A stretch of DNA of 64,000 bases from Ophiura sarsii (lineage: Eukaryota > Echinodermata > Ophiuroidea > Amphilepidida > Ophiuridae). The stretch spans positions 36,556,098-36,620,097 of the forward strand of contig CM069449.1 of the NCBI GenBank assembly GCA_035610835.1, in the 5' to 3' direction. Positions 3,070-36,211 of this stretch are shown piece by piece. Both the position numbers and the translations under genes were made by a program. Within the stretch, counting starts at the first letter, position 1, and each line of letters opens with the position of its first letter. The notes below the pieces were generated by a model. The model was not told where the DNA came from, ran no database searches, and worked only from the letters and a program-made list of their open reading frames with translations.

Positions 3070-3259
3070 GAAGCATTAATTTTTAGTGTGTATGTTACAT
3101 GTACAGATGTGCCTGGGGAAAAAGAGCTACTCATGCTCATTAATCAAGCCTCAAAACGACCCTAAATGGCGTAGTACCTGGTTGCACGCCACTAAATATT
3201 CCTGGCCGGCACGATAGGTGTTGCAAAATAAGATTGGAAAATTGGTACCATCCTTACCT

Positions 3260-3300
3260 TAAACCCCCCCCCCCCAAAAAAAAAATGGAAAATAGCATAG
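3260..3300. repeat. C-run and A-run low-complexity tract
   Basis: A run of C followed by a run of A lies just outside the 3314-4590 repeat complex. It contains no gene. Short open frames over this region are compositional. Confidence 0.7.
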
Positions 3301-3313
3301 ACCTGGTTATTTT

Positions 3314-4590
3314 TTGTAAGGCAAAAAAAAAATGTTTGGTTGTCCTCCAGAGCTTTTCTGGAGTAGGAGCGGGGGGGCGGGGAATTTTGTTTTATTTTTT
3401 TTTATTTTTTTTTTATGATCATTCACAAACTGTATCTCATTTGCTAACAAAAAACACCTGTCTTTTTAACTAAAATATCCTTTTAATTTATGTTTTAATC
3501 AGTAAGGCCAAGTAAAAAATAAAACATGTTTAGCGTCTGGGTTTTTGAAAAATGAGGAGGAGGGGCTTTTTTTTTTCTTCTTTTTTTTGTGGAAAAAAGC
3601 TCTAAATTCCCATATTTAGTGCTATATTTGGCGTATTCGGCGTAGAGATTGATATCTAAAAAAAGGAGGAGGCCTTTTTTATTTTCTATTTTTGAGAAGA
3701 AGGCTCCTCCAGTGATTGAAAAACTCTCTTGAAATGCTTCTATTATACATTTGAAAGCTTTCAGAATAAGTTTCAACTTCTGAAACATCTTTTTTATCAA
3801 GTTATAGCTGAAAGTTTACAAAATAAAAAGAAAATTGAAGAATCTTCAAAAAAGGAGGAGGGTGGGGACGCTAAACATGTATTTTTTTTTATTCGGCCTA
3901 AAAGAGTGTGAATAAACTAAAGTGTTCAATAAACCTTCAAGAAACACTTTATTTAATAAGATCACTTGAAAATATTATGAGAAGAAAAAACTTCACTGAA
4001 TTGCAAAAAAAAGGTGTGGTAATAGTATTCTTTAAAAAAAATATTTTAAAAACTTGTTAAAAATACAAAAAAAATATCAGGCTGCACAAGTCTATTCAAA
4101 TAAAATATCATTTTATTTATGTATTTAATCAGTTAAAAAGTGTGAATAAACTGTTCAATAAACTTTCAAGAATATCACTCAAAAATAGTGTGAGACACTG
4201 AATTTCAAAGGTTAGGTGTAGTAATAATATTCTTCAAAAATATATTTAAAAAAACTTTTTCAAAATAAAAAAAAAGGTCAGGCTGCACAAGTCTATTCAA
4301 CTAAAATATCCTTTTATTGTTTTAATCTGTTACAAAGTGTGAATAAACTGTTTAATAAACTTTCAAGGTAAAATTTAATATCACTCCAAAATAATGTGAA
4401 AGAAAAAAATTTCATTGAGTTTCACTAATTACGTGTGGTAAAACTTTTGTTTAGTAAAAGTAAAAAATCAAAAAAAAATTCAGAAAAAAACTTTTTTTTC
4501 CAAAAAAAAAAAAAAAAGGCGGTACGGCTGCACAAAAAGGGGCGGGCGGTCGAGGACAACCAAAAAATTTGTGTTTGCCTTATGGATGTG
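3314..4590. repeat. AT-rich repeat complex with inverted ends
   Basis: The ends are inverted copies: GTAAGGC ... TTTGGTTGTCCTC near 3317-3352 pairs with GAGGACAACCAAA ... GCCTTA near 4550-4582. A second inverted pair, built on ACATGTTTAGCGTC, sits near 3523-3538 and 3868-3882. The right part holds about three degenerate direct repeats of roughly 200-235 bp, beginning GTGTGAATAAACT near 3906, 4139 and 4337, each with GGCTGCACAAGTCTATTCAA in the first two intervals. Long A and T runs make all open frames here untrustworthy. It is probably a foldback transposon with internal tandem repeats. Confidence 0.5.
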
Positions 4591-5844: not shown

Positions 5845-7260
5845 TTAGAATTTGACCTTTAACCCCTTAACCATAAGTCGGACGATGAGGTTACCTTGGA
5901 CACTATTTGATCTTTGACTAAGACCAACACATTTGCTGCATCAATTGTGTTATATTAGGTTGTTTAAAATTTGACCCCTTATGTAACCAAATTTGACCTT
6001 TGCCACCTTAACCATAGGTCAGATGATGAGGTCACCATGGACACTATTTGATCTTTGACTAAGACCAATACATTGGCAGCATCAGTTGTATCATATTAGG
6101 TTGTTTTCAATTTGACCCTTATGTAACCAAATTTGACCTTTGGAAGTTATTTGATCTTGTCTTTGACTTAGACCAGTACATTAGAGATATTACTTCTATC
6201 ATTTAAAGTTGTTTAAAATTTGACCCCTTATCTAACTACATTTGACCTTCTTTGACCTTTGACACCATAACCATAGGTCGGACAAAGAGGTCACCGTGGA
6301 CATTTTTTAATCTTGAACTAAGACCAATACAGTCACAGTATTAGTTTTTGCATTTGAGACTGTTTGAAATTTGACCTTTCAACTTTGACCCCAAATGACC
6401 TCCGATCACAATATCTTTGTGGACACTATTTGATCTTTGACTAAGACTAACACATTTGCAGCATCAATTGTGTTATATTAGGGTGTTTAAAATTTGACCC
6501 CTTATGTAACCAAATTTGACCTTTGCCACCTTAACCATAGGTCAGATGATGAGGTCACCATGGACACTATTTGATCTTTGACTAAGACCAATACATTGGC
6601 AGCATCAGTTGTATCATATTAGGTTGTTTTCAATTTGACCCCTTATGTAACCAAATTTGACCTTTGACCCCTTAACCATAGGTCAGACGATGAGGTCACC
6701 GTGGAAGTTATTTGATCTTGTCTTTGACTTAGACCAGTACATTGGAGATATTACTTCTATCATTTAAAGTTGTTTAAAATTTGACCCCTTATCTAACTAC
6801 ATTTGACCATCTTTGACCTTTGACACCATAACCATAGGTCGGACAAAGAGGTCACCGTGGACATGTTTTAATCTTGAACTAAGACCAATACAGTCACAGT
6901 ATTAGTTTTTGCATTTGAGACTGTTTGAAATTTGACCTTTCAACTTTGACCCCAAATGACCTCCGATCAAAAATTCCTGAACACCCCGAAGGAACCTCTA
7001 CCCAAGGATCCCTCCACCCGACTTTTGTTGAAATCGGTCGAAAACTGTAGACGAAAAAGCGTTTTGATCGTATTTTGAAGATGACCTCGTTTGACCCCTA
7101 GATGACCTTTGACCCCTAATTCATGAACACCCCTATTGTCCCCCTACCCATCGATGATCATATGCGAGTTACAAGAAAATCGGTCAAACAGTATTCGAGA
7201 AGAAGCGTTTTGAAATTGTTGACAGATAGATAGACATATAGACGCATCGGTATGCTAGAA
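5845..7260 (+). repeat. TGACC-rich tandem repeat with direct-repeat (DR1-like) motifs
   Basis: Degenerate repeats are built on TTTGACC and on CCTTAACCATAGGTC, ATGAGGTCACC and TTTGATCTTTGACTAAGACC. A larger block is duplicated with about a 515-bp offset: AACACATTTGCTGCATCAA near 5935 recurs as AACACATTTGCAGCATCAA near 6449. TGACCTTTGACC-type words recur near 6248, 6658, 6814 and 7103. The tail (GAAATCGGTCGAAAA, then GAAAATCGGTCAAACA and AGAAGCGTTTTG, ending in GACAGATAGATAGAC) looks like the 3' end of a dispersed repeat. No coding frame is seen. Confidence 0.75.
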
Positions 7261-14168: not shown

Positions 14169-14192
14169 ATGGCGGACTCAAGCAGGGAATAA
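14169..14192 (+). pseudogene. N-terminal open frame cut off by the A/B array
   Basis: GAAATGGCGG is a strong start context. The frame reads MADSSRE and then stops at a TAA formed by the last three bases of the ATAA duplication that borders the array. If this was a host first exon, the insertion truncated it after seven codons, and the rest would be on the far side of 27249. There the sequence is another dispersed repeat, so this cannot be confirmed within the window. It may instead be untranslated leader. Confidence 0.35.
14189..14192. repeat. Left target-site duplication ATAA of the array
   Basis: ATAA directly precedes the first A terminus (GGGTGCATACC). The same four bases follow the last A terminus at 27246-27249. 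Internal A copies are bordered by TTAA instead. Confidence 0.6.
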
Positions 14193-14659
14193 GGGTGCAT
14201 ACCACTATTACGCGCTTACGTGTGTTTCTATGGGAAAGATGCCTCGGGAAAACGGCAATATCTTGAGTTACCTTGCGACTCATTTAATGAAATCTTGGAA
14301 TATTTATTAACACACATAGATCTTACCTGGGTCAAAAACTCAGATGGGGGTGACCGTTTACATTTTTTTATATTTCCCCCTTTATACGGAGTAGTATTTT
14401 TTAACACGAAATTAGACCTTGTAGCCCGTTGTGACCAATGTGTATCCCTCCGCCAATATTTTCAAATAAAACAGTAGATGTATACTCTTTTCATTTGAAT
14501 TATCTCAGGTACACTTCAGTGAACAAATATAGACCAAATTCAATCATTTTGAATGACATATCATGTCAATATTAACCATTCTTTCCGTTATTTAGGAACT
14601 ATATTCGTGATCGCGATCGACGGAAGCTGGGCGTTGGACTGTAATAGTGGTGTGCACCC
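14193..14659 (+). mobile_element. Module A, copy 1 (left edge of array)
   Basis: A has terminal inverted repeats: GGGTGCATACCACTATTAC on the left and GTAATAGTGGTGTGCACCC on the right. From its first base A carries one open frame of about 93 codons (14193-14474). It contains no ATG near its start but has protein-like text such as YLELPCDSFNEILEYLLTH, DLTWVKNSDGGDRLHFF and DLVARCDQCVSLRQYF. It could be a captured exon or chance. No transposase motif is seen. The family is unassigned: 4-bp TTAA/ATAA duplications fit Kolobok-, piggyBac- or Sola-like enzymes only loosely. Confidence 0.82.
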
Positions 14660-14663
14660 TTAA

Positions 14664-15744
14664 AGAGACCCATTTTCATCCAATTTCAGAAATCATTATT
14701 ACATATTAAAGAACAGAAAATTTCAAATTGAATGATAAATTTGTATTCGATTTGGATACTCCGTTTGGTAAATACAACATGTACAAGAAGCTACCTCCCC
14801 ACTTGAAATTCATAAAAACCCTTAATTTTTGTCATATTTTGGGATTCCCAGATATCAATTTTCACTTTTACAACGAAGGCCCGTGTTTCTTGATCTTATT
14901 GAATGTTAAAAGGATGCATGCTTCATCTTTTTGATACACCACTGTTCTATAACATAGCAAAACATGTTCATTCATTTGGTCATGATATACTTGCAATAAT
15001 TGTCCGACCAATATACCGGGGGAAAGGAAGTACATGTGAATGTGAATGCACGAAGAAGCCACACATTATTGGTTAATATTCATGATTTTTAATTAAATCG
15101 TCGTGTAGTCCTACATGTATATACATTTTAGATATCATAAGTATATTTTCAAAACTATTTTATCATTAGATTGCCTACATTTGCCTGACCACTCCACAAA
15201 GTTGTATTGATCAAAACTCTCACGAAATATGTCAGTAGGCCTAAGACCTACAGTTCAAAACGATGTCGATATTTTGATTTCTGGTGCGTTTTGACCCGGT
15301 ATCCCCTATCTCCCCCATACCCCCCCCCCCCCCATGCCCCACATGCCCCACGCCCGTGGAACTGAGTTTCTGAGTCATTATGCTTATAGGATTGTTTTGA
15401 TGTCAATGGATGTTATATGTTTTGTTTGTAAACTCATAAAAAATACTGAGTTTTCACACACAATCTCGCTCACTGGTATCTTTAAATATGATGGTAACAA
15501 ATTGCAATTGTCCGAAATTGCAACGGTCAGGCGCGCACCCGACTGACTTTGCCCGTTTGGCCCGTATTTTGACAATTTCGCACTTTAATGAATGAAAAAG
15601 TCAAATTTAATAATGTCAATGTTGCGATTATTACTTCAAATGTATTTTCAAAATATAAAACTAACATAAAATGCTACACAAACCAAGTTTTGCAACCACA
15701 AAACCCGTAATCGCCTGGTTTTAAAGACTATCTCTGTGCTCCCT
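14664..15744 (+). repeat. Module B, copy 1 (divergent edge copy)
   Basis: B begins AGAGACCCATTTTCATCC and ends TCTCTGTGCTCCCT. Its ends are only weakly inverted (AAAGAGA against AAAGGGA, counting the TTAA). This copy differs from all others at 15001-15045 (GTCCGACCAATA for GTCACCAATA, and GTGAATGTGAATG for GTTCATGTGAATG), as expected for an array edge escaping homogenisation. The C-run is 14. Short open frames inside B do not look like domains, and one crosses the C-run. Confidence 0.85.
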
Positions 15745-15748
15745 TTAA

Positions 15749-16215
15749 GGGTGCATACCACTATTACGCGCTTACGTGTGTTTCTATGGGAAAGATGCCT
15801 CGGGAAAACGGCAATATCTTGAGTTACCTTGCGACTCATTTAATGAAATCTTGGAATATTTATTAACACACATAGATCTTACCTGGGTCAAAAACTCAGA
15901 TGGGGGTGACCGTTTACATTTTTTTATATTTCCCCCTTTATACGGAGTAGTATTTTTTAACACGAAATTAGACCTTGTAGCCCGTTGTGACCAATGTGTA
16001 TCCCTCCGCCAATATTTTCAAATAAAACAGTAGATGTATACTCTTTTCATTTGAATTATCTCAGGTACACTTCAGTGAACAAATATAGACCAAATTCAAT
16101 CATTTTGAATGACATATCATGTCAATATTAACCATTCTTTCCGTTATTTAGGAACTATATTCGTGATCGCGATCGACGGAAGCTGGGCGTTGGACTGTAA
16201 TAGTGGTGTGCACCC
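15749..16215 (+). mobile_element. Module A, copy 2
   Basis: 467 bp, TTAA on both sides (15745-15748 and 16216-16219), same termini and reading frame as copy 1. Confidence 0.82.
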
Positions 16216-16219
16216 TTAA

Positions 16220-17299
16220 AGAGACCCATTTTCATCCAATTTCAGAAATCATTATTACATATTAAAGAACAGAAAATTTCAAATTGAATGATAAATTTGT
16301 ATTCGATTTGGATACTCCGTTTGGTAAATACAACATGTACAAGAAGCTACCTCCCCACTTGAAATTCATAAAAACCCTTAATTTTTGTCATATTTTGGGA
16401 TTCCCAGATATCAATTTTCACTTTTACAACGAAGGCCCGTGTTTCTTGATCTTATTGAATGTTAAAAGGATGCATGCTTCATCTTTTTGATACACCACTG
16501 TTCTATAACATAGCAAAACATGTTCATTCATTTGGTCATGATATACTTGCAATAATTGTCACCAATATACCGGGGGAAAGGAAGTACATGTTCATGTGAA
16601 TGCACGAAGAAGCCACACATTATTGGTTAATATTCATGATTTTTAATTAAATCGTCGTGTAGTCCTACATGTATATACATTTTAGATATCATAAGTATAT
16701 TTTCAAAACTATTTTATCATTAGATTGCCTACATTTGCCTGACCACTCCACAAAGTTGTATTGATCAAAACTCTCACGAAATATGTCAGTAGGCCTAAGA
16801 CCTACAGTTCAAAACGATGTCGATATTTTGATTTCTGGTGCGTTTTGACCCGGTATCCCCTATCTCCCCCATACCCCCCCCCCCCCCCATGCCCCACATG
16901 CCCCACGCCCGTGGAACTGAGTTTCTGAGTCATTATGCTTATAGGATTGTTTTGATGTCAATGGATGTTATATGTTTTGTTTGTAAACTCATAAAAAATA
17001 CTGAGTTTTCACACACAATCTCGCTCACTGGTATCTTTAAATATGATGGTAACAAATTGCAATTGTCCGAAATTGCAACGGTCAGGCGCGCACCCGACTG
17101 ACTTTGCCCGTTTGGCCCGTATTTTGACAATTTCGCACTTTAATGAATGAAAAAGTCAAATTTAATAATGTCAATGTTGCGATTATTACTTCAAATGTAT
17201 TTTCAAAATATAAAACTAACATAAAATGCTACACAAACCAAGTTTTGCAACCACAAAACCCGTAATCGCCTGGTTTTAAAGACTATCTCTGTGCTCCCT
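16220..17299 (+). repeat. Module B, copy 2
   Basis: Consensus-type copy with TTAA on both sides. C-run of 15. Confidence 0.85.
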
Positions 17300-17303
17300 T
17301 TAA

Positions 17304-17770
17304 GGGTGCATACCACTATTACGCGCTTACGTGTGTTTCTATGGGAAAGATGCCTCGGGAAAACGGCAATATCTTGAGTTACCTTGCGACTCATTTAATG
17401 AAATCTTGGAATATTTATTAACACACATAGATCTTACCTGGGTCAAAAACTCAGATGGGGGTGACCGTTTACATTTTTTTATATTTCCCCCTTTATACGG
17501 AGTAGTATTTTTTAACACGAAATTAGACCTTGTAGCCCGTTGTGACCAATGTGTATCCCTCCGCCAATATTTTCAAATAAAACAGTAGATGTATACTCTT
17601 TTCATTTGAATTATCTCAGGTACACTTCAGTGAACAAATATAGACCAAATTCAATCATTTTGAATGACATATCATGTCAATATTAACCATTCTTTCCGTT
17701 ATTTAGGAACTATATTCGTGATCGCGATCGACGGAAGCTGGGCGTTGGACTGTAATAGTGGTGTGCACCC
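17304..17770 (+). mobile_element. Module A, copy 3
   Basis: 467 bp, TTAA at 17300-17303 and 17771-17774. It is followed by three consecutive B modules without A. Confidence 0.82.
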
Positions 17771-17774
17771 TTAA

Positions 17775-18856
17775 AGAGACCCATTTTCATCCAATTTCAG
17801 AAATCATTATTACATATTAAAGAACAGAAAATTTCAAATTGAATGATAAATTTGTATTCGATTTGGATACTCCGTTTGGTAAATACAACATGTACAAGAA
17901 GCTACCTCCCCACTTGAAATTCATAAAAACCCTTAATTTTTGTCATATTTTGGGATTCCCAGATATCAATTTTCACTTTTACAACGAAGGCCCGTGTTTC
18001 TTGATCTTATTGAATGTTAAAAGGATGCATGCTTCATCTTTTTGATACACCACTGTTCTATAACATAGCAAAACATGTTCATTCATTTGGTCATGATATA
18101 CTTGCAATAATTGTCACCAATATACCGGGGGAAAGGAAGTACATGTTCATGTGAATGCACGAAGAAGCCACACATTATTGGTTAATATTCATGATTTTTA
18201 ATTAAATCGTCGTGTAGTCCTACATGTATATACATTTTAGATATCATAAGTATATTTTCAAAACTATTTTATCATTAGATTGCCTACATTTGCCTGACCA
18301 CTCCACAAAGTTGTATTGATCAAAACTCTCACGAAATATGTCAGTAGGCCTAAGACCTACAGTTCAAAACGATGTCGATATTTTGATTTCTGGTGCGTTT
18401 TGACCCGGTATCCCCTATCTCCCCCATACCCCCCCCCCCCCCCCCATGCCCCACATGCCCCACGCCCGTGGAACTGAGTTTCTGAGTCATTATGCTTATA
18501 GGATTGTTTTGATGTCAATGGATGTTATATGTTTTGTTTGTAAACTCATAAAAAATACTGAGTTTTCACACACAATCTCGCTCACTGGTATCTTTAAATA
18601 TGATGGTAACAAATTGCAATTGTCCGAAATTGCAACGGTCAGGCGCGCACCCGACTGACTTTGCCCGTTTGGCCCGTATTTTGACAATTTCGCACTTTAA
18701 TGAATGAAAAAGTCAAATTTAATAATGTCAATGTTGCGATTATTACTTCAAATGTATTTTCAAAATATAAAACTAACATAAAATGCTACACAAACCAAGT
18801 TTTGCAACCACAAAACCCGTAATCGCCTGGTTTTAAAGACTATCTCTGTGCTCCCT
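17775..18856 (+). repeat. Module B, copy 3
   Basis: Joined to B4 without an A. The junction reads CTCCCTTTAAGAGACC, i.e. TTAA with the first A of the next B missing. C-run of 17. Confidence 0.85.
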
Positions 18857-18860
18857 TTAA

Positions 18861-19941
18861 GAGACCCATTTTCATCCAATTTCAGAAATCATTATTACAT
18901 ATTAAAGAACAGAAAATTTCAAATTGAATGATAAATTTGTATTCGATTTGGATACTCCGTTTGGTAAATACAACATGTACAAGAAGCTACCTCCCCACTT
19001 GAAATTCATAAAAACCCTTAATTTTTGTCATATTTTGGGATTCCCAGATATCAATTTTCACTTTTACAACGAAGGCCCGTGTTTCTTGATCTTATTGAAT
19101 GTTAAAAGGATGCATGCTTCATCTTTTTGATACACCACTGTTCTATAACATAGCAAAACATGTTCATTCATTTGGTCATGATATACTTGCAATAATTGTC
19201 ACCAATATACCGGGGGAAAGGAAGTACATGTTCATGTGAATGCACGAAGAAGCCACACATTATTGGTTAATATTCATGATTTTTAATTAAATCGTCGTGT
19301 AGTCCTACATGTATATACATTTTAGATATCATAAGTATATTTTCAAAACTATTTTATCATTAGATTGCCTACATTTGCCTGACCACTCCACAAAGTTGTA
19401 TTGATCAAAACTCTCACGAAATATGTCAATAGGCCTAAGACCTACAGTTCAAAACGATGTCGATATTTTGATTTCTGGTGCGTTTTGACCCGGTATCCCC
19501 TATCTCCCCCATACCCCCCCCCCCCCCCCCATGCCCCACATGCCCCACGCCCGTGGAACTGAGTTTCTGAGTCATTATGCTTATAGGATTGTTTTGATGT
19601 CAATGGATGTTATATGTTTTGTTTGTAAACTCATAAAAAATACTGAGTTTTCACACACAATCTCGCTCACTGGTATCTTTAAATATGATGGTAACAAATT
19701 GCAATTGTCCGAAATTGCAACGGTCAGGCGCGCACCCGACTGACTTTGCCCGTTTGGCCCGTATTTTGACAATTTCGCACTTTAATGAATGAAAAAGTCA
19801 AATTTAATAATGTCAATGTTGCGATTATTACTTCAAATGTATTTTCAAAATATAAAACTAACATAAAATGCTACACAAACCAAGTTTTGCAACCACAAAA
19901 CCCGTAATCGCCTGGTTTTAAAGACTATCTCTGTGCTCCCT
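18861..19941 (+). repeat. Module B, copy 4
   Basis: B-B junctions on both sides, both of the CTCCCTTTAAGAGACC type. It carries a private base change (GTCAATAGG near 19426, others GTCAGTAGG). C-run of 17. Confidence 0.85.
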
Positions 19942-19945
19942 TTAA

Positions 19946-21025
19946 GAGACCCATTTTCATCCAATTTCAGAAATCATTATTACATATTAAAGAACAGAAA
20001 ATTTCAAATTGAATGATAAATTTGTATTCGATTTGGATACTCCGTTTGGTAAATACAACATGTACAAGAAGCTACCTCCCCACTTGAAATTCATAAAAAC
20101 CCTTAATTTTTGTCATATTTTGGGATTCCCAGATATCAATTTTCACTTTTACAACGAAGGCCCGTGTTTCTTGATCTTATTGAATGTTAAAAGGATGCAT
20201 GCTTCATCTTTTTGATACACCACTGTTCTATAACATAGCAAAACATGTTCATTCATTTGGTCATGATATACTTGCAATAATTGTCACCAATATACCGGGG
20301 GAAAGGAAGTACATGTTCATGTGAATGCACGAAGAAGCCACACATTATTGGTTAATATTCATGATTTTTAATTAAATCGTCGTGTAGTCCTACATGTATA
20401 TACATTTTAGATATCATAAGTATATTTTCAAAACTATTTTATCATTAGATTGCCTACATTTGCCTGACCACTCCACAAAGTTGTATTGATCAAAACTCTC
20501 ACGAAATATGTCAGTAGGCCTAAGACCTACAGTTCAAAACGATGTCGATATTTTGATTTCTGGTGCGTTTTGACCCGGTATCCCCTATCTCCCCCATACC
20601 CCCCCCCCCCCCCCATGCCCCACATGCCCCACGCCCGTGGAACTGAGTTTCTGAGTCATTATGCTTATAGGATTGTTTTGATGTCAATGGATGTTATATG
20701 TTTTGTTTGTAAACTCATAAAAAATACTGAGTTTTCACACACAATCTCGCTCACTGGTATCTTTAAATATGATGGTAACAAATTGCAATTGTCCGAAATT
20801 GCAACGGTCAGGCGCGCACCCGACTGACTTTGCCCGTTTGGCCCGTATTTTGACAATTTCGCACTTTAATGAATGAAAAAGTCAAATTTAATAATGTCAA
20901 TGTTGCGATTATTACTTCAAATGTATTTTCAAAATATAAAACTAACATAAAATGCTACACAAACCAAGTTTTGCAACCACAAAACCCGTAATCGCCTGGT
21001 TTTAAAGACTATCTCTGTGCTCCCT
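19946..21025 (+). repeat. Module B, copy 5
   Basis: The left junction lacks A and the right side has TTAA then A copy 4. C-run of 16. Confidence 0.85.
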
Positions 21026-21029
21026 TTAA

Positions 21030-21496
21030 GGGTGCATACCACTATTACGCGCTTACGTGTGTTTCTATGGGAAAGATGCCTCGGGAAAACGGCAATATCT
21101 TGAGTTACCTTGCGACTCATTTAATGAAATCTTGGAATATTTATTAACACACATAGATCTTACCTGGGTCAAAAACTCAGATGGGGGTGACCGTTTACAT
21201 TTTTTTATATTTCCCCCTTTATACGGAGTAGTATTTTTTAACACGAAATTAGACCTTGTAGCCCGTTGTGACCAATGTGTATCCCTCCGCCAATATTTTC
21301 AAATAAAACAGTAGATGTATACTCTTTTCATTTGAATTATCTCAGGTACACTTCAGTGAACAAATATAGACCAAATTCAATCATTTTGAATGACATATCA
21401 TGTCAATATTAACCATTCTTTCCGTTATTTAGGAACTATATTCGTGATCGCGATCGACGGAAGCTGGGCGTTGGACTGTAATAGTGGTGTGCACCC
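21030..21496 (+). mobile_element. Module A, copy 4
   Basis: 467 bp, TTAA at 21026-21029 and 21497-21500. It closes the B-B-B run. Confidence 0.82.
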
Positions 21497-21500
21497 TTAA

Positions 21501-22577
21501 AGAGACCCATTTTCATCCAATTTCAGAAATCATTATTACATATTAAAGAACAGAAAATTTCAAATTGAATGATAAATTTGTATTCGATTTGGATACTCCG
21601 TTTGGTAAATACAACATGTACAAGAAGCTACCTCCCCACTTGAAATTCATAAAAACCCTTAATTTTTGTCATATTTTGGGATTCCCAGATATCAATTTTC
21701 ACTTTTACAACGAAGGCCCGTGTTTCTTGATCTTATTGAATGTTAAAAGGATGCATGCTTCATCTTTTTGATACACCACTGTTCTATAACATAGCAAAAC
21801 ATGTTCATTCATTTGGTCATGATATACTTGCAATAATTGTCACCAATATACCGGGGGAAAGGAAGTACATGTTCATGTGAATGCACGAAGAAGCCACACA
21901 TTATTGGTTAATATTCATGATTTTTAATTAAATCGTCGTGTAGTCCTACATGTATATACATTTTAGATATCATAAGTATATTTTCAAAACTATTTTATCA
22001 TTAGATTGCCTACATTTGCCTGACCACTCCACAAAGTTGTATTGATCAAAACTCTCACGAAATATGTCAGTAGGCCTAAGACCTACAGTTCAAAACGATG
22101 TCGATATTTTGATTTCTGGTGCGTTTTGACCCGGTATCCCCTATCTCCCCCATACCCCCCCCCCCCCATGCCCCACATGCCCCACGCCCGTGGAACTGAG
22201 TTTCTGAGTCATTATGCTTATAGGATTGTTTTGATGTCAATGGATGTTATATGTTTTGTTTGTAAACTCATAAAAAATACTGAGTTTTCACACACAATCT
22301 CGCTCACTGGTATCTTTAAATATGATGGTAACAAATTGCAATTGTCCGAAATTGCAACGGTCAGGCGCGCACCCGACTGACTTTGCCCGTTTGGCCCGTA
22401 TTTTGACAATTTCGCACTTTAATGAATGAAAAAGTCAAATTTAATAATGTCAATGTTGCGATTATTACTTCAAATGTATTTTCAAAATATAAAACTAACA
22501 TAAAATGCTACACAAACCAAGTTTTGCAACCACAAAACCCGTAATCGCCTGGTTTTAAAGACTATCTCTGTGCTCCC
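21501..22577 (+). repeat. Module B, copy 6
   Basis: Joined to B7 by a different A-less junction, CTCCCTTAAAGAGACC (the final T of B is missing). C-run of 13, the shortest in the array. Confidence 0.85.
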
Positions 22578-22581
22578 TTAA

Positions 22582-23662
22582 AGAGACCCATTTTCATCCA
22601 ATTTCAGAAATCATTATTACATATTAAAGAACAGAAAATTTCAAATTGAATGATAAATTTGTATTCGATTTGGATACTCCGTTTGGTAAATACAACATGT
22701 ACAAGAAGCTACCTCCCCACTTGAAATTCATAAAAACCCTTAATTTTTGTCATATTTTGGGATTCCCAGATATCAATTTTCACTTTTACAACGAAGGCCC
22801 GTGTTTCTTGATCTTATTGAATGTTAAAAGGATGCATGCTTCATCTTTTTGATACACCACTGTTCTATAACATAGCAAAACATGTTCATTCATTTGGTCA
22901 TGATATACTTGCAATAATTGTCACCAATATACCGGGGGAAAGGAAGTACATGTTCATGTGAATGCACGAAGAAGCCACACATTATTGGTTAATATTCATG
23001 ATTTTTAATTAAATCGTCGTGTAGTCCTACATGTATATACATTTTAGATATCATAAGTATATTTTCAAAACTATTTTATCATTAGATTGCCTACATTTGC
23101 CTGACCACTCCACAAAGTTGTATTGATCAAAACTCTCACGAAATATGTCAGTAGGCCTAAGACCTACAGTTCAAAACGATGTCGATATTTTGATTTCTGG
23201 TGCGTTTTGACCCGGTATCCCCTATCTCCCCCATACCCCCCCCCCCCCCCCATGCCCCACATGCCCCACGCCCGTGGAACTGAGTTTCTGAGTCATTATG
23301 CTTATAGGATTGTTTTGATGTCAATGGATGTTATATGTTTTGTTTGTAAACTCATAAAAAATACTGAGTTTTCACACACAATCTCGCTCACTGGTATCTT
23401 TAAATATGATGGTAACAAATTGCAATTGTCCGAAATTGCAACGGTCAGGCGCGCACCCGACTGACTTTGCCCGTTTGGCCCGTATTTTGACAATTTCGCA
23501 CTTTAATGAATGAAAAAGTCAAATTTAATAATGTCAATGTTGCGATTATTACTTCAAATGTATTTTCAAAATATAAAACTAACATAAAATGCTACACAAA
23601 CCAAGTTTTGCAACCACAAAACCCGTAATCGCCTGGTTTTAAAGACTATCTCTGTGCTCCCT
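22582..23662 (+). repeat. Module B, copy 7
   Basis: Begins after the variant junction at 22576-22582 and ends at TTAA before A copy 5. C-run of 16. Confidence 0.85.
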
Positions 23663-23666
23663 TTAA

Positions 23667-24133
23667 GGGTGCATACCACTATTACGCGCTTACGTGTGTT
23701 TCTATGGGAAAGATGCCTCGGGAAAACGGCAATATCTTGAGTTACCTTGCGACTCATTTAATGAAATCTTGGAATATTTATTAACACACATAGATCTTAC
23801 CTGGGTCAAAAACTCAGATGGGGGTGACCGTTTACATTTTTTTATATTTCCCCCTTTATACGGAGTAGTATTTTTTAACACGAAATTAGACCTTGTAGCC
23901 CGTTGTGACCAATGTGTATCCCTCCGCCAATATTTTCAAATAAAACAGTAGATGTATACTCTTTTCATTTGAATTATCTCAGGTACACTTCAGTGAACAA
24001 ATATAGACCAAATTCAATCATTTTGAATGACATATCATGTCAATATTAACCATTCTTTCCGTTATTTAGGAACTATATTCGTGATCGCGATCGACGGAAG
24101 CTGGGCGTTGGACTGTAATAGTGGTGTGCACCC
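23667..24133 (+). mobile_element. Module A, copy 5
   Basis: 467 bp, TTAA at 23663-23666 and 24134-24137. It follows the B6-B7 pair. Confidence 0.82.
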
Positions 24134-24137
24134 TTAA

Positions 24138-25217
24138 AGAGACCCATTTTCATCCAATTTCAGAAATCATTATTACATATTAAAGAACAGAAAATTTCAA
24201 ATTGAATGATAAATTTGTATTCGATTTGGATACTCCGTTTGGTAAATACAACATGTACAAGAAGCTACCTCCCCACTTGAAATTCATAAAAACCCTTAAT
24301 TTTTGTCATATTTTGGGATTCCCAGATATCAATTTTCACTTTTACAACGAAGGCCCGTGTTTCTTGATCTTATTGAATGTTAAAAGGATGCATGCTTCAT
24401 CTTTTTGATACACCACTGTTCTATAACATAGCAAAACATGTTCATTCATTTGGTCATGATATACTTGCAATAATTGTCACCAATATACCGGGGGAAAGGA
24501 AGTACATGTTCATGTGAATGCACGAAGAAGCCACACATTATTGGTTAATATTCATGATTTTTAATTAAATCGTCGTGTAGTCCTACATGTATATACATTT
24601 TAGATATCATAAGTATATTTTCAAAACTATTTTATCATTAGATTGCCTACATTTGCCTGACCACTCCACAAAGTTGTATTGATCAAAACTCTCACGAAAT
24701 ATGTCAGTAGGCCTAAGACCTACAGTTCAAAACGATGTCGATATTTTGATTTCTGGTGCGTTTTGACCCGGTATCCCCTATCTCCCCCATACCCCCCCCC
24801 CCCCCCATGCCCCACATGCCCCACGCCCGTGGAACTGAGTTTCTGAGTCATTATGCTTATAGGATTGTTTTGATGTCAATGGATGTTATATGTTTTGTTT
24901 GTAAACTCATAAAAAATACTGAGTTTTCACACACAATCTCGCTCACTGGTATCTTTAAATATGATGGTAACAAATTGCAATTGTCCGAAATTGCAACGGT
25001 CAGGCGCGCACCCGACTGACTTTGCCCGTTTGGCCCGTATTTTGACAATTTCGCACTTTAATGAATGAAAAAGTCAAATTTAATAATGTCAATGTTGCGA
25101 TTATTACTTCAAATGTATTTTCAAAATATAAAACTAACATAAAATGCTACACAAACCAAGTTTTGCAACCACAAAACCCGTAATCGCCTGGTTTTAAAGA
25201 CTATCTCTGTGCTCCCT
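24138..25217 (+). repeat. Module B, copy 8
   Basis: Consensus-type copy between A5 and A6. C-run of 15. Confidence 0.85.
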
Positions 25218-25221
25218 TTAA

Positions 25222-25688
25222 GGGTGCATACCACTATTACGCGCTTACGTGTGTTTCTATGGGAAAGATGCCTCGGGAAAACGGCAATATCTTGAGTTAC
25301 CTTGCGACTCATTTAATGAAATCTTGGAATATTTATTAACACACATAGATCTTACCTGGGTCAAAAACTCAGATGGGGGTGACCGTTTACATTTTTTTAT
25401 ATTTCCCCCTTTATACGGAGTAGTATTTTTTAACACGAAATTAGACCTTGTAGCCCGTTGTGACCAATGTGTATCCCTCCGCCAATATTTTCAAATAAAA
25501 CAGTAGATGTATACTCTTTTCATTTGAATTATCTCAGGTACACTTCAGTGAACAAATATAGACCAAATTCAATCATTTTGAATGACATATCATGTCAATA
25601 TTAACCATTCTTTCCGTTATTTAGGAACTATATTCGTGATCGCGATCGACGGAAGCTGGGCGTTGGACTGTAATAGTGGTGTGCACCC
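25222..25688 (+). mobile_element. Module A, copy 6
   Basis: 467 bp, TTAA at 25218-25221 and 25689-25692. Confidence 0.82.
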
Positions 25689-25692
25689 TTAA

Positions 25693-26774
25693 AGAGACCC
25701 ATTTTCATCCAATTTCAGAAATCATTATTACATATTAAAGAACAGAAAATTTCAAATTGAATGATAAATTTGTATTCGATTTGGATACTCCGTTTGGTAA
25801 ATACAACATGTACAAGAAGCTACCTCCCCACTTGAAATTCATAAAAACCCTTAATTTTTGTCATATTTTGGGATTCCCAGATATCAATTTTCACTTTTAC
25901 AACGAAGGCCCGTGTTTCTTGATCTTATTGAATGTTAAAAGGATGCATGCTTCATCTTTTTGATACACCACTGTTCTATAACATAGCAAAACATGTTCAT
26001 TCATTTGGTCATGATATACTTGCAATAATTGTCACCAATATACCGGGGGAAAGGAAGTACATGTTCATGTGAATGCACGAAGAAGCCACACATTATTGGT
26101 TAATATTCATGATTTTTAATTAAATCGTCGTGTAGTCCTACATGTATATACATTTTAGATATCATAAGTATATTTTCAAAACTATTTTATCATTAGATTG
26201 CCTACATTTGCCTGACCACTCCACAAAGTTGTATTGATCAAAACTCTCACGAAATATGTCAGTAGGCCTAAGACCTACAGTTCAAAACGATGTCGATATT
26301 TTGATTTCTGGTGCGTTTTGACCCGGTATCCCCTATCTCCCCCATACCCCCCCCCCCCCCCCCATGCCCCACATGCCCCACGCCCGTGGAACTGAGTTTC
26401 TGAGTCATTATGCTTATAGGATTGTTTTGATGTCAATGGATGTTATATGTTTTGTTTGTAAACTCATAAAAAATACTGAGTTTTCACACACAATCTCGCT
26501 CACTGGTATCTTTAAATATGATGGTAACAAATTGCAATTGTCCGAAATTGCAACGGTCAGGCGCGCACCCGACTGACTTTGCCCGTTTGGCCCGTATTTT
26601 GACAATTTCGCACTTTAATGAATGAAAAAGTCAAATTTAATAATGTCAATGTTGCGATTATTACTTCAAATGTATTTTCAAAATATAAAACTAACATAAA
26701 ATGCTACACAAACCAAGTTTTGCAACCACAAAACCCGTAATCGCCTGGTTTTAAAGACTATCTCTGTGCTCCCT
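25693..26774 (+). repeat. Module B, copy 9
   Basis: Last B, between A6 and A7. C-run of 17. No B follows A7. Confidence 0.85.
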
Positions 26775-26778
26775 TTAA

Positions 26779-27245
26779 GGGTGCATACCACTATTACGCG
26801 CTTACGTGTGTTTCTATGGGAAAGATGCCTCGGGAAAACGGCAATATCTTGAGTTACCTTGCGACTCATTTAATGAAATCTTGGAATATTTATTAACACA
26901 CATAGATCTTACCTGGGTCAAAAACTCAGATGGGGGTGACCGTTTACATTTTTTTATATTTCCCCCTTTATACGGAGTAGTATTTTTTAACACGAAATTA
27001 GACCTTGTAGCCCGTTGTGACCAATGTGTATCCCTCCGCCAATATTTTCAAATAAAACAGTAGATGTATACTCTTTTCATTTGAATTATCTCAGGTACAC
27101 TTCAGTGAACAAATATAGACCAAATTCAATCATTTTGAATGACATATCATGTCAATATTAACCATTCTTTCCGTTATTTAGGAACTATATTCGTGATCGC
27201 GATCGACGGAAGCTGGGCGTTGGACTGTAATAGTGGTGTGCACCC
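26779..27245 (+). mobile_element. Module A, copy 7 (right edge of array)
   Basis: 467 bp, TTAA on the left (26775-26778). On the right the flank is ATAA (27246-27249), matching the left edge of the whole array. Confidence 0.82.
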
Positions 27246-27261
27246 ATAACCGGGGGGCACT

Positions 27262-29839: not shown

Positions 29840-32800
29840 TTAGTCACATAGAGGGCGTGTTTTCTTATGGTTTTTTTTCTTTTAACATTGGCCAAAAAAG
29901 AAAGAAAAAGGACTTAACTTCAATCAATTTTGCTGGCAAACTGAACCCAAAGACATATTTTATGTTGTTAATGATAATGAAGGTTAATAGGTAAAGAATA
30001 TTTTCTGGAAGATACATGAACTTTTACCGGATATTTTTCCACGTAGAGGGCGTGTTTTCTTTCTACATTTGCCAAAAAAAGAAGAAAAAAACGGGACTTA
30101 ACTTCAATCGATTTTGCTGAAAAACTGAACCCAAAGATATATTCTTTTTGGTTAATAATAATGAATCTATATACGTAAAGAATATTTTCTGAAAGATACA
30201 TGAACTTTGCCCGAAGATTTTTCCACGTAGAGGGCGTGTTTTCTCTCTACATTGGCAAAAGTTGAAAGAAAAAGGACTTAACTTCAATCGATTTTTCTGG
30301 CAAACTGAGCCCAAAAATATATTATTTTTTGTTAATAATGATGAATGTTAAAACGTAAAGATTATTGTCTGAAAGATACATGAACTTTGACCGGAGATTT
30401 TTCCACGTAGAAGGCGTGTTTTCTCTCTACATTGGCAAAAAAGAAAGAATAAGGACTCAACTTCAATCAATTTTGGTGGCAAACTGAGCCCAAAGATATA
30501 TTATTTTTTGTTAATAATAATGAATTATAATACGTAATGAATATTTTCTGAAAGAAACATGAACCTTTACCGCAGATTTTTCAACGTAGAGGGCGTGTTT
30601 TCTTTCTACATTGGCAAAAAGAGGAAGAAAAAGGACATAACTTCAATCAATTTTGCTGACAAACTGAGATATATTATTTTTTGTTAATAATAATGAATGA
30701 TAATACGTAAAGAATATTTTCTGAAAGATACATGAACTTTTACCGGAGATTTTCGTCGTAGAGGGCGTGTTTTCTTTCTACATTGGCAAAAAAGATAAAG
30801 AAAATAGACTTAACTTCAATCGATTTTGCTGGCAAACTGAGCCCAAAGATATATTATTTTTTGTTAATAATAATAAATGATAATACGTAAATAATATTTT
30901 CTGAAAGATACATGAACTTTGACCGAAGATTTTTCCACGTAGAGGGCGTGTTTTCTTTCTACATAGGCAAAAAAGAAAGAAAAAGGACATAACTTCAATC
31001 AATTTTGCTGACAAACTGAGCCCAAAGATTTTTTTTTTTTTTGTAAATAATAATGAATGATAATACGTAAAGAATATTTTCTGAAAGAAACATGAACTTT
31101 TACCGGAGATTTTTCAACGTAGAGGGCGTGTTTTCTTTCTACATTGGCAAAAAAGATAAAGAAAATAGACTTAACTTCAATCCATTTTGCTGGCAAACTG
31201 AGCACAAAGATATATTATTTGTTGTTAATAATAATGAATGTTAATCCTTAAAATCAATTTTGCTTGCAAACTGAGCCCAAAGATATGTTATTTTTTGTTA
31301 ATAATAATGAATATTAATACGTAAAGATTATTGTCTGAAAGATACATGAACTTTGACCGAAGATTTTTCCACGTAGAGGGCGTGTTTTCTCTCTACATTG
31401 TCAAAATTTGAAAGAAAAAGGACTTAACTTCAATCGATTTTGCTGGCAAACTGATCCCAAAAATATATTATTTTTTGTTGATAATAATGAATGTTATTAC
31501 GTAAAGATTATTGTCTGAAAGATACATGAACTTTGACCAGAGATTTTTCCACGTAGAGGGCGTGTTTTCTCTCTACATTGTCAAAATTTGAAAGAAAAAG
31601 GACTTAACTTCAATCGATTTTGCTGGCAAACTGAGCACAAAGATATATTATCTTTTGTTAATAATAATGAATGATAATACGTAAAGAATATTTTCTGAAA
31701 GATACATGAACTTTTACCGGAGATTTTTCCACGTAGAGGGCGTGTTTTCTTTCTACATTGGCAAAAAAGAAAAAGAAAAAAAAGTCTTAACTTCAATCGA
31801 TTTCGCTGGCAAACTGAGAACAAAGATATATTCTTTTTTGTTAATAATAATGAATGTTAATACGTAAAGATTATTGTCTGAAAGATACATGAACTTTTAC
31901 CGAAGATTTTCCCCGTAGAGGGCGTGTTTTCTTTCTAGATAAAGAAAATAGACTTAACTTAAATCGATTTTACTGGCAAACTGAGCCCAAATATATATTA
32001 TTTTTTGTTAATAATAATAAATCTATATACGTAAAGAATATTTTCTGAAAGATACATGAACTTTGACAGAAGATTTTTCTACGTAGAGGGCGTGTTTTCT
32101 TTCTACATAGGCAAAAAAGAAAGAAAAAGGACATAACTTCAATCAATTTTGCTGACAAACTGAGCCCAAAGATATGTTATTTTTTGTAAATAATAATGAA
32201 TGATAATACGTAAAGAATATTTTCTGAAAGAAACATGAACTTTTACCGGAGATTTTCCACGTAGAGGGCGTGTTTTCTTTCTACATTGGCAAAAAAGATA
32301 AAGAAAATAGACTTAACTTCAATCCATTTTGCTGGCAAACTGAGCACAAAGATATATTATTTGTTGTTAATAATAATGAATGTTAATACGTAAAGAATAT
32401 TTCCTAAAAGATACATGAACTTTTACCGGAGATTTTCCACGTAGAGGGCGTGTTTTCTTTCTACATTGGCAAAAAAATATAAAGAAAATAGACTTAACTT
32501 CAATCGATTTTGCTGGCAAAATGAGCCCAAAGATATATTATTTTTTGTTAATAATAATAAATCTATATACGTAAAGAATATTTTCTGAAAGATACATGAA
32601 CTTTTACCGAAGATTTGTCCACGCAGACGGCGTGTTTTCTTTCTACATAGGCAAAAAAGAAAGAAAAAGGACTAAAACTTCAATCGATTTTGCTGACAAA
32701 CTGAGCCTAAAGATATAATATTTTTTGTTAATAATAATGAATGATAATCCGTAAAATCAATTTTGGTTGCAAACTGAGCCCAAAGATATGTTATTTTTTG

Positions 32801-34076
32801 TTAATAATAATGAATATTAATACGTAAAGATTATTGTTTGAAAGATACATGAACTTTGACCGAAGATTTTTCCACGTAGAGGGCGTGTTTTCTCTCTACA
32901 TTGTCAAAATTTGAAAGAAAAAGGACTTAACTTCGATCGATTTTGCTGGCAAACTGATCCCAAAAATATATTATTTTTTGTTGATAATAATGAATGTTAA
33001 TACGTAAAGATTATTGTCTGAAAGATACATGAACTTTGACCAGAGATTTTTCCACGTAGAGGGCGTGTTTACTTTCTACATTGGCAAAAAAACAAAAACA
33101 AAATAGACTTAACTTCAATCGATTTCGCTGGCAAACTGAGCACAAAGATATATTATTTTTTGTTAATAATAATGAATGATAATACGTAAAGAATATTTTC
33201 TGAAAGATACATGAACTTTTACCGGAGATTTTTCCACGTAGAGGGCGTGTTTTCTTTCTACATTGGCAAAAAAAAAGAAAAGAAAAAAAGACTTAACTTC
33301 AATCGATTTCGCTGGCAAACTGAGAACAAAGATATATTCTTTTTTGTTAATAATAATGAATGTTAATACGTAAAGATTATTGTTTGAAAGATACATGAAC
33401 TTTTACCGAAGATTTTCCACGTAGAGGGCGTGTTTTCTTTCTACATTGGCAAAAAAATATAAAGAAAATAGACTTAACTTAAATCGATTTTACTGGCAAA
33501 CTGAGCCCAAATATATATTATTTTTTGTTAATAATAATAAATCTATATACGTAAAGAATATTTTCTGAAAGATACATGAACTTTGACAGAAGATTTTTCC
33601 ACGTAGAGGGCGTGTTTTCTTTCTACATGGGCACAAAAGAAAGAAAAAGGACTTAACTTCAATCGATTTTCCTGACAAACTGAGCCCAAAGATATATTAT
33701 TTTTTGTTAATAATAATGAATGTTAATGCGTAAAAAATATTTTCTGAAAAATACATGAACTTTTACCGGAGATTTTTCTACGTAGAGGGCGTGTTTTATT
33801 TATTTCTACATTGGCAAAAAAGAAAGAAAAAGGACTTGACTTCAATCAATTTTGCTGGCAAACTGAGCACAAAGATATATTATTTTTTGTTAATAATAAT
33901 GAATATTAATACGTAAAGATTATTGTCTGAAAGATACATGAACTTTGACCGGAGATTTTCCACGTAGAGGGCGTGTATTTCTACATTTGCAAAAAAAGAA
34001 GAAAAAAAACACCAGGACTTAACTTCAATCGATTTTATTGAAAAACTGAGCCCAAATATATATTCTTTTTTGTTAA
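29840..34076 (+). repeat. ~180-bp satellite array, left block
   Basis: About 23 monomers. Each contains, in order, TACGTAAAGAATATTTTCTG, AAAGATACATGAACTTT, CCGGAGATTTTTCCACGTAG, AGGGCGTGTTTTCTTTCTAC, ATTGGCAAAAAAGAAAGAAA, GGACTTAACTTCAATCGATT, TTGCTGGCAAACTGAGCCCA and TTTTTTGTTAATAATAATGA. Monomers differ by substitutions and small indels. Some multi-monomer segments are duplicated: a variant with GTAAAATCAATTTTGCTTGC recurs at about 31256, 32753, 36953 and 38293. Minus-strand frames through monomers are shadows. Confidence 0.9.
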
Positions 34077-36207
34077 CAGTCTCTGCCTCTAAGGGCGTAC
34101 CATGTGGTGATTCATGGGTCCTCAGATCAACTTTTTAAAAAAACTAGTGATACATTACCATAACATTATACTACTGCCAAATTTTAAAATTCCCAAAAGT
34201 TTTGGTTCGGTCGTAAAAAATCACAGAAATTTTAGGAACAAATCCCAGTAAAATGATTACTACGTTCCCTATAAGTATAACTATGCGCACCATGCACATC
34301 CCAACGAAAGGAAAACATATTTGAAACCTCCAGTTGGGTACACAACAAAAGTGAAACAAAATCATTGGGATCTCGTTGGCGCGTCACATTACGCTGACCT
34401 TGAAACCGTGACGAACAGCGTCCTTAGCAGTTTTCAAGCCCTTATAGTTTGACGCGCCAACGAGATCCCATTACATAAACAAGTTCATATGGAAGAACTC
34501 AGAGCCTTTAATATATTCAAAAGTAAAAATTGTTGGGATCTCGTTGGCGCACGGAGATAATCCAGGTCAAAGGTCAAGTTTTACCATTTTGAGCCATTTT
34601 TGCACCTCCGTAAATCCGTGCGCCATCTTTAAAACACCTTGGAAATGACATCTACTTGTAAAGATGGTTTACCTTGAATAAAAAATGAAGAAACTGGTTT
34701 GGGATCTCAGAGATTTTTTTTTTAATGATTTTTTACAAATTTGCTTAAGAGCAACTTGCACTGCATGCGAGTCAGTAATAGCCCTTTGTGCATTGTCCAA
34801 GTTCATGTAAATCAGTGCGCCAACAAGATCCCATCAACTTTTTGATTTATTTGCTTAGTTTGGCCACCATTCAATAGATACCACTAGAAAAAACTTTGGG
34901 ATTTTGATGGCGGTTAATTCTACATGATCGCAAAGTTGAGGTGTCATCAGCTTTATTCTCGAGCCTTTTTGGGCCATTTATCAGATTATCAGAATATCAG
35001 ATTCCTTTGGTGAATTTTGTCATGTCATATAGGACATTGTTTTTCATGCATTTTGAACCATTCTCAACCCATCAACATTAATCTGTTGCATGATGTTTCA
35101 TAAATTGCATATTATGTCTTCAGAATTCAACAACCCTGTCGAATTCGGAAGACATGACTTACATATTTTGAAATCGACATTACAGACTAACATAGATGTG
35201 TTCGGAATAGTCTAAAATGCATAGAAAACAATGTCCTATATGACATGTCCAAAATTCACCAAAGTAATCTGATATCCTGGGACTTAGTCTGAAATGGCTC
35301 AAAAAGGCTTGAGAATAAAGCTGATGACACCTCAATTTTGCGCTCATTTAGAATTCACCGCCATCAAAATCCCAAAGTTTTTTCTAGTGGTATCTATTGA
35401 ATGGTGGCCAAACTAAGCAAATAAATCAAAAAGTTAATGGGATCTAGTTGGCGCACTGATTTATAAGAGCTTGAACAATGTATGTGGGGCTATTACTGAC
35501 TCGCATGCACTGTAAGTTGACCTTAAGCAAATTTGTAAAAATCGTTTTAAAAAAAAATCTTAAAGATCCCAAGCTGGAATCTTCATTTTTGATTTAAGGT
35601 AAACCATCTTTGCAACTGGAGATCATTTCCAAGGTGTTTTAAAGATGGCGCACAGAGGTACGGAGGTGCAAAAATGGCTCAAAATAGTAACATTTGACCT
35701 TTGACCTTGATTATCTCCCTGCGCCAACGAGATCCCAACAATGTTTCCTTTTGAATTTGTTAAAGGCTCCGAGTTCTTTCATATGCACTTGTTTATTGAA
35801 TGGGATCTTGTTGGCGCATCGAATTATAAGGTCTTGAAACTGCATAAGAGCGCTGTTCGTCAAGGGTTCAAGGTCAGCGTAATATGACACGCCAACGAGA
35901 TCCCAACGATTTTGTTTCACTTTTGTTATGTACCTAACTGGAGGTTTCAAAATATGTTTTCCATTCGTTGGGATGTACGTAGCGCGCATAGATATACTTA
36001 TGGGGAACGTAGTAATCGTTTTACTGGGTTTTTTTCCTGAAATTTCAGTGATTTTTAACGACCGAACCAAAAATGTTAGGAATTTTAAAATTTGGCTATG
36101 ATATAATGGTATGGTAATGTATCACTGATTTTTTTATAAAGTTGATCTGAGGACTCATGAATCACAACACCCCCCCCAAAATGGTACACTATTACAGGCA
36201 GAGACTG
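34077..36207. mobile_element. 2.1-kb hairpin (foldback) element with TTAA duplication, inside the satellite
   Basis: CAGTCTCTGCCT at the left pairs with AGGCAGAGACTG at the right, and TTAA lies at 34073-34076 and 36208-36211. The arms are about 1.05 kb each and meet near 35145-35165 (GAATTC on both sides). Removing it restores an uninterrupted satellite monomer (TTTTTGTTAATAATAATGAA). The word TGGGATCTCGTTGGCGC or its complement occurs about eight times in alternating orientation (near 34367, 34444, 34534, 34809, 35438, 35721, 35800 and 35889), suggesting smaller nested palindromes. The minus-strand frame 35711-36070 repeats WDLVG only because of this word. Confidence 0.82.
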
Positions 36208-36211
36208 TTAA

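Follow-up and report, generated by a model that had tools for sequence, protein, structure and literature searches.

A tandem A/B array of Ophiura sarsii, very probably a multimeric KolobokP-type composite DNA transposon

Composite DNA transposons in which an internal region (INT) lies between direct repeats termed LTDRs, each with its own short terminal inverted repeats (TIRs), were published in 2022 as the class KolobokP (Kojima & Bao 2022, PMC9587614). According to that paper, one-sided losses of 1 to 5 bp occur at INT-INT junctions, for which a circular intermediate was suggested, and INT-LTDR and solo INT insertions were described and explained by LTDR loss. A literature search returned the name KolobokP only in PMC9587614, and a search on LTDRs with multimers, from which ten of 48 records were listed, ranked that paper first, with no second case apparent from the nine other titles. 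Here, we analysed a stretch of 64,000 nucleotides of Ophiura sarsii DNA (GCA_035610835.1, contig CM069449.1, positions 36,556,098 to 36,620,097, hereafter the window), in which a block at positions 14189-27249 is built of two modules, A and B. We propose that this block is, very probably, a nonautonomous and multimeric KolobokP-type composite DNA transposon, A being the LTDR and B the INT, and that after its insertion it probably expanded in place. The class is thus already known, and the elements reported here form a further family of it.

The array and its closest described systems

The window block reads A B A B A BBB A BB A B A B A, every module having the same direction, and comprises seven A of 467 bp each and nine B of about 1,080 bp. 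The seven A copies show no substitution among themselves. Among the nine B copies, variation consists of three substitutions, 2 bp inserted in the first B, and a poly-C tract whose length ranges from 13 to 17. A starts with GGGTGCATACCACTATTAC and ends with an inverted copy of it, forming a 19-bp TIR with one mismatch and GG...CC termini. The outermost borders of the block coincide with A ends and are flanked by ATAA on both sides (14189-14192 and 27246-27249), and TTAA is found at all 12 other A flanks (6/6 before A2-A7 and 6/6 after A1-A6). A is absent at three B-B junctions (18856/18860, 19941/19945 and 22578/22582). The original prediction, which described an array bounded exactly by the inverted-repeat termini of A, with ATAA outside, TTAA inside and an A(BA)n order lacking some A, was in this respect confirmed base by base. 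The features, all on the + strand, are as follows.

14189-14192, +, left target-site duplication ATAA
14193-14659, +, A1 (LTDR-like module, 467 bp, 19-bp TIRs)
14664-15744, +, B1 (internal region, 1081 bp; two substitutions and the 2-bp insertion relative to most other B)
15749-16215, +, A2
16220-17299, +, B2
17304-17770, +, A3
17775-18856, +, B3
18857-18859, +, B3/B4 junction CCCTTTAAGAG, A missing; readable as a 5-bp loss from the right flank only
18860-19941, +, B4, with one private substitution
19942-19944, +, B4/B5 junction CCCTTTAAGAG, same scar type as B3/B4
19945-21025, +, B5
21030-21496, +, A4
21030-24133, +, A-BB-A segment (3104 bp), with a stand-alone counterpart on contig C6 (3105 bp)
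21501-22578, +, B6, with a 13-base poly-C tract, the shortest of the nine B
22579-22581, +, B6/B7 junction CCCTTAAAGAG, A missing; readable as a 5-bp loss from the left flank only
22582-23662, +, B7
23667-24133, +, A5
24138-25217, +, B8
25222-25688, +, A6
25693-26774, +, B9
26779-27245, +, A7, right outer end
27246-27249, +, right target-site duplication ATAA

The longest open reading frames (ORFs) of the array, of 112-113 aa with TTG starts, are found in three B copies, and B holds no ORF longer than 113 aa. Pfam gave no match for three window ORFs, including one tested large B ORF, an Rfam scan of the window gave 0 matches, and a search of a plasmid collection gave no match. The right end of B (TGTGCTCCC, or TGTGCGCCC in other subfamilies) is one base off the right end of A (TGTGCACCC), and at window positions 15730-15748, as at other B-A junctions, it is followed by TTTAA and then by A, so that B seems to end in a relic of A.

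The assignment to KolobokP relies on element architecture together with Pfam matches. The internal region lies between direct copies of the 467-bp A, each with its own 19-bp TIR, and this length compares with LTDRs of about 450 or about 660 bp; the GG...CC termini are of the RR...YY type, and the target duplications, of 3-5 bp in KolobokP, are of 4 bp here. Both solo A and (LTDR-INT)n-LTDR multimers with outer duplications are encountered, INT-INT junctions carry a small one-sided loss (93 of the 100 listed B-B junctions, from 195 in all), and a longer form, of which one unit was analysed with Pfam, has ORFs for a transposase of the DDD/E type and, on the other strand, for a His-Me nuclease, as does autonomous KolobokP. 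Hence the family shares with the published elements, as far as the available text of PMC9587614 describes them, the LTDR of the 450-bp class, the RR...YY termini, the solo repeats, the multimers, the one-sided INT-INT losses and the longer form with two enzymes. It differs in that the duplications are TTAA or close to it, whereas that text reports no strong target preference, and in reaching a 46.6-kb array with at least 32 internal units, a size not named there. In addition, the scar here measures exactly 5 bp in nearly every listed junction, and a scarred dimer is present at more than one site.

Comparison was extended to other known systems. The transposon piggyBac duplicates TTAA strictly and excises precisely. 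The TTAA duplications are common to both, but the elements studied here have GG...CC termini (a contrast drawn in PMC9587614), mostly imprecise scars and a partner transposase that matches PF20700. Assignment to piggyBac was ruled out by the termini and the scars, and by the 17 of 26 matching composite duplications that are not TTAA; precise B-B junctions amount to 3 of the 100 listed, plus two read at C18. The bacterial pseudo-compound transposons and translocatable units of IS26 resemble the array in that copies of a small mobile element at both ends mobilise the interval between them and neighbours share one copy (PMC9587614), whereas here the system is eukaryotic and Kolobok-type, produces 4-bp duplications and has an A that itself carries no gene. 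Finally, the Kolobok T2-MITEs (miniature inverted-repeat transposable elements) of Xenopus have in common the TTAA target, the RR termini and transposon-borne tandem repeats; as described in PMC6004289, those repeats lie inside one MITE, whereas here complete end elements alternate with an internal region.

The same architecture across the assembly

In the assembly (1.57 Gb, 748 contigs), the right end of A occurs 938 times (23 bp searched, at most 2 mismatches), the exact left end of B (21 bp) 493 times, and a B-B junction with intact flanks 195 times. Own 4-bp duplications surround A-B-A on C5 (TTAA) and C7 (TTGA), A(BA)2 on C17 (CTAA), A-B-A-BB-A at C12b (ATAA, order given in the direction of the element) and A-BB-A-BB-A-B-A on C18 (TTAA). 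Other loci have TCAA (C1:84.17, C1:109.82 and C1:153.86) or TTGA (C1:86.12, C1:92.05, C1:157.78 and C2:39.34) duplications, flanks of minus-strand loci being quoted as on the plus strand. The ten initial loci and those loci, among the 100 listed of the 938 A right ends, for which both outer A ends were read make up a sample of 29 A-bounded composites, many of them read only at their ends and for their spacing, and 15 solo A. An exact 4-bp duplication flanks 26 of the 29 composites, whereas 100,000 shuffles of the flank partners average 6.7 matches and never exceed 16; 17 of the 26 duplications are non-TTAA. Solo A have identical flanks in 14 of 15 cases, eight of them non-TTAA (shuffles: mean 3.9, maximum 11 of 15). 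Both counts omit loci at which A is truncated, an end is missing, neighbours are inverted, another element is present or a flank was not read; among those omitted are contig C705, C6:22.28 Mb, C1 at 63.4, 66.7, 69.6, 82.7, 109.7 and 140.9, C2 at 2.3, 6.1, 21.7, 29.6, 50.05, 65.0, 67.5, 68.8 and 82.2, C3:44.9, and about nine more on C2-C4.

A genome-wide count of VTAA flanks gave 60 right and 57 left A ends. These form 39 nearest same-strand pairs less than 70 kb apart, and the first base of the duplication agrees in 39/39, a value reached in 0 of 100,000 shuffled pairings (mean 25.2; 0.08 pairs expected by chance); the pairing is blind to partners with other flanks or altered ends. Twenty-three pairs are of solo length (424-476 bp) and the 16 others exceed 600 bp, namely four monomers of about 2,010 bp, three pairs of 869-1,183 bp and nine of 2.6, 5.2, 10.1, 13.1 (the window), 18.6, 21.0, 21.3, 46.6 and 57.4 kb. 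Since the A...A architecture with locus-specific 4-bp duplications recurs elsewhere, chance is excluded as its origin. The paired duplications, found alike around solo A, A-B-A and arrays, support the original prediction of a composite A-B-A that either inserted once and then expanded or moved already amplified. Its further statement that alternating arrays with an outer duplication are unusual was not supported, as other such arrays exist in the same genome and the class had been published in 2022 (PMC9587614). The joined flanks of the window array (30 bases), mimicking an empty site, had 0 matches in the assembly with up to 3 mismatches, which neither supports nor refutes insertion.

The longest array checked through is the 46.6-kb one at C5:43.50-43.55 Mb (46,644 bp, CTAA/CTAA), with 32 exact B starts from end to end, spaced by about 1,070 bp (B-B) or about 1,540 bp (B-A-B), and one gap of 3,046 bp. 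The 57-kb pair on C19 was not accepted as a single array: one of three interior probes is B, and the two others match none of A, B, the C6 element and the longer relative X described below. The same holds for the one probe (L136) placed in a 5.2-kb pair at C10:12818541-12823709, with A ends and CTAA on both sides, which possibly contains a third cargo. The 21.3-kb pair has other DNA at its single probe and B-B junctions nearby. At C9:1987503-2033848 two neighbouring B-rich arrays run in opposite directions; the one on the minus strand (21 kb) has ATAA at both ends, and of the plus-strand array only the left ATAA end was seen.

Junction scars and a longer relative

The flanks of A imply a pre-insertion site CCCTTTAAAGAG. 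Among the 100 listed of the 195 B-B junctions, CCCTTAAAGAG is found 58 times, CCCTTTAAGAG 35 times, the precise site 3 times and other forms 4 times; the listed junctions come from 30 loci, 8 of which contain both common kinds. These two kinds correspond to 5-bp losses, of TTTAA on the left (58) or of TTAAA on the right (35), and make up 93/100, within a search pattern that needs intact flanks and to which larger losses are not visible. That nearly all listed junctions have lost exactly 5 bp on one side, and that these 5 bp return as the spacer of a multi-copy A-A junction described next, is possibly new.

Exact A-A adjacency was found at 9 places in 4 loci, 0 of them with a TTAA spacer, a lower bound as the pattern needs exact A ends. 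At C1:47.9 the spacer is TTTAA in 6/6 cases, the only A-A junction found in many copies, and at C2:50.05 Mb it is TTAAA, with one substitution in a flanking A end. A search for A-5bp-A with 2 mismatches returned 281 places (100 listed) and was swamped by B-A junctions, because the right end of B is there one base off that of A. These two spacers are the very bases missing from the B-B scars, and this symmetry, seen in very few independent A-A events, is suggestive of a circular intermediate.

The six A-A junctions at C1:47.9 belong to an array of about 38 kb (C1:47.90-47.94 Mb) that has TTTA on both sides and whose A-to-A spacings reveal a longer repeating unit. The one unit that was read, here called X (L073, 1019-5311), is an internal region of 4,293 bp flanked by A of the window type; blastn found no similarity between X and either A or B, nor between X and the window, at E 0.1. 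On the element strand X has two overlapping ORFs (265 and 433 aa), the first of which matches PF20700 (Mutator-like transposase, E 3.9e-26), while the second has no Pfam match. Near the far end, on the opposite strand, a 137-aa ORF matches PF05551 (zinc-binding loop of homing endonucleases, E 8.3e-10), and both matches are above the cut-off. A sequence search of the PDB with this His-Me ORF gave one weak match, ORF57, taken for chance. Another A...A element, at C3:46.55 Mb (TTGA/TTGA), has a spacing of 4,773 bp from A to A that recurs in the X array; its ends and spacing were read. The internal region of X has no right end resembling a relic of A.

Further elements were noted. In L009 (C6:22278001-22288000), a 3.7-kb element (572-4300) with ends TTAAGGGGGCTGTCAAGTGTC...GACACTTGACAGCCCCCTTAA lies exactly in TTAA between A and B, and its end sequence is found again after the last A of that stretch; it appears to be a second TTAA-type element riding inside an amplified array. 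A related element with end GGGTGCACACCACTATTAC and a different interior (L047, 1500-2820) holds a further A-like MITE (GGGTATACACCACC...GGTGGTGTGTACCC). The window also contains long tandem arrays of a unit of about 180 bp with a recurrent 73-bp partial unit (29875-34076 and 36206-40107), two arrays of 21-bp units that are inverted copies of each other (52581-52942 and 56034-56707, about 87% identity, about 3 kb apart), and a 141-bp unit in tandem (5849-6892).

Origin and growth of the arrays

The outer A ends together with the two ATAA copies mark the window block as one insertion. The evidence favours insertion of a short unit followed by expansion in place. A transposase acting in trans would have inserted an A...A unit, probably short, at a TTAA-like site, and homologous exchange between A copies would then have lengthened the array where it stands. 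Single A copies would later have been lost, usually together with 5 bp of the flank of one side, leaving B-B, and any A...A interval, B-B dimers included, is probably still a mobile unit. In an 11-locus sample, private variants are fixed in all units at C12a (three in all four A, four in all three B), C6a (two in A, four in B) and C1:83.75 (one and four), where both internal A-B junctions also share a private 1-bp deletion; private variants common to all units at these three older loci speak for growth in place there. That the whole 13-kb array of the window transposed as one already amplified unit is unlikely in our view. Nothing forbids it, the window subfamily III showing almost no divergence between loci, and the scarred A-BB-A that lies inside the window, stands alone at C6 (outer flanks TTAA/TTTA) and is partly present on C705 indicates that multi-B units probably move; yet neither the scar type nor the poly-C length is rare, so that A-BB-A could have arisen independently, the unit order of the window had no second locus among the loci read, and the three older loci have the shared private variants that in-place growth predicts. 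For the growth of the window array, a single assembly is compatible with either route. Nested insertion, with A entering TTAA next to another A, was rejected as a mode of growth, since exact A-A adjacency, counted as a lower bound, was seen at 4 loci and in no case with a TTAA spacer.

The remaining explanations differ widely in merit. That B is an ordinary satellite into which A, as a TTAA-targeting MITE, inserted many times is scarcely tenable: A does insert alone, internal A copies do sit in TTAA, and A is lacking where expected beside some B-B pieces, but the flanks of composites pair as locus-specific duplications, often non-TTAA, around the whole A...A block, the common B-B forms CCCTTTAAGAG and CCCTTAAAGAG differ from the site CCCTTTAAAGAG, the A copies of each array read all have the same direction, and on C1-C3 all but four of the 37 B left ends come after A or another B. 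A classical satellite with an inserted MITE was accordingly rejected for these arrays, which are bounded by a target duplication and were found through their A ends. Only slightly less improbable is an assembly artefact with a collapsed or expanded repeat; contig C705 breaks inside such an array and copy number is that of the assembly, but the ends, the duplications and the variants of single units (private substitutions, three scars and a poly-C of 13-17) form a specific and consistent pattern, and clean flanks surround arrays that differ in length. A better case, if still a doubtful one, can be made for array growth in which excised circles (of A+B, or of A plus a 5-bp flank) integrate, instead of unequal crossing over; Kojima & Bao raised circles as a possibility (PMC9587614). 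The B-B scars can be read as one-sided losses of TTTAA or TTAAA, and the A-A spacers at C1:47.9 and C2:50.05 carry the same 5 bp. However, A-A junctions come from very few independent loci, three others have the spacers TAA, TTTTAA and TCAA, homologous exchange explains identical units equally well, A-TTTAA-A could also arise if the internal region were deleted between CCCTT repeats, and short-homology deletion would likewise yield the B-B forms. By analogy, scars and spacers might even be reciprocal products of one reaction, the excision of A or A...A as a circle keeping 5 bp, in the manner of the copy-out-paste-in of bacterial IS3/IS256, although we regard this as improbable. The encoded endonuclease might then act on A-TTAA-A or A-B junctions and drive array growth, as a eukaryotic counterpart of IS26 translocatable units. 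A hypothetical A-TTAA-A junction would be a perfect palindrome (GCACCC-TTAA-GGGTGC). Endonucleases of the I-PpoI type leave a 4-base overhang, to which the four central bases of this palindrome correspond. Abutted A ends with TTAA match an I-PpoI-like site at 11/15 positions, a weak match, several substrates having been tried, that is found in 55 of 5,000 shuffles of the same length and in 89 of 5,000 with TTAA kept; inside the A-B unit no I-PpoI-like site better than in shuffled sequence was found.

Several observations weigh against a KolobokP-type composite that inserted as a short unit and grew in place. No private variant is fixed in the window array in the 11-locus sample. C17 has eight partly private variants in A and eight in B, its two B copies being 0.95% apart; partly private variants are found in the B of C12b and C18 too, so that a multimer may have been inserted at these three loci. 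The A-BB-A of window positions 21030-24133, with its left-loss scar and 13-base poly-C, equals the stand-alone C6 element except for one poly-C base, and is found on C705 as far as the contig reaches (1,893 bp). With this scarred unit at two sites and perhaps at a third, multi-B structure need not in every case have formed in place; judging from the scar and the poly-C length in a near-identical subfamily, the two-B unit probably moved as such. Unequal flanks occur in three of the 29 composites (C6b TTAA/TTTA, C1:27.86 TTGA/TTAA and C3:41.73 TTAA/TCAA) and in one of the 15 solo A (L075, TGAA/TTAA), and among the VTAA ends, 18 of the 57 on the left and 21 of the 60 on the right have no partner. 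As the 29 composites were found via A ends, arrays ending in B would escape the count. In the array at C3:44.94 Mb, with seven B-B junctions, no A end is found at the expected left position (L116), and at five of ten single B-B places probed neither expected-A probe matched A or B. Finally, the transposase frame of X is split over two overlapping ORFs, and it is from the common A ends that we infer X to be the likely source of the enzyme moving A.

Some arrays may thus end in B. At none of the ten probed places were both ends of a simple A-BB-A layout present. On C1-C3 there are 37 exact left ends of B, of which 24 come directly after an exact A right end, nine after another B and four after neither, both lists being complete for exact matches and B alone not having been systematically sought. 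The seven B-B junctions at C3:44.941-44.951 Mb (L115, L116) are of one scar type, and one side of this array is an A with TTAT outside, a flank that resembles a duplication.

Taken together, satellite-like arrays tens of kilobases long can have their origin in a DNA transposon, as paired target duplications imply that a whole array occupies one insertion. With hundreds of units (493 exact B left ends) and near-identical monomers, multimers, solo ends and scars, the Ophiura sarsii genome offers a large and clean sample, suited to the question left by the KolobokP paper of whether multimers grow by unequal exchange or by circles (PMC9587614). If the symmetry of the scars holds, the route of growth would be readable from the junctions in long reads.

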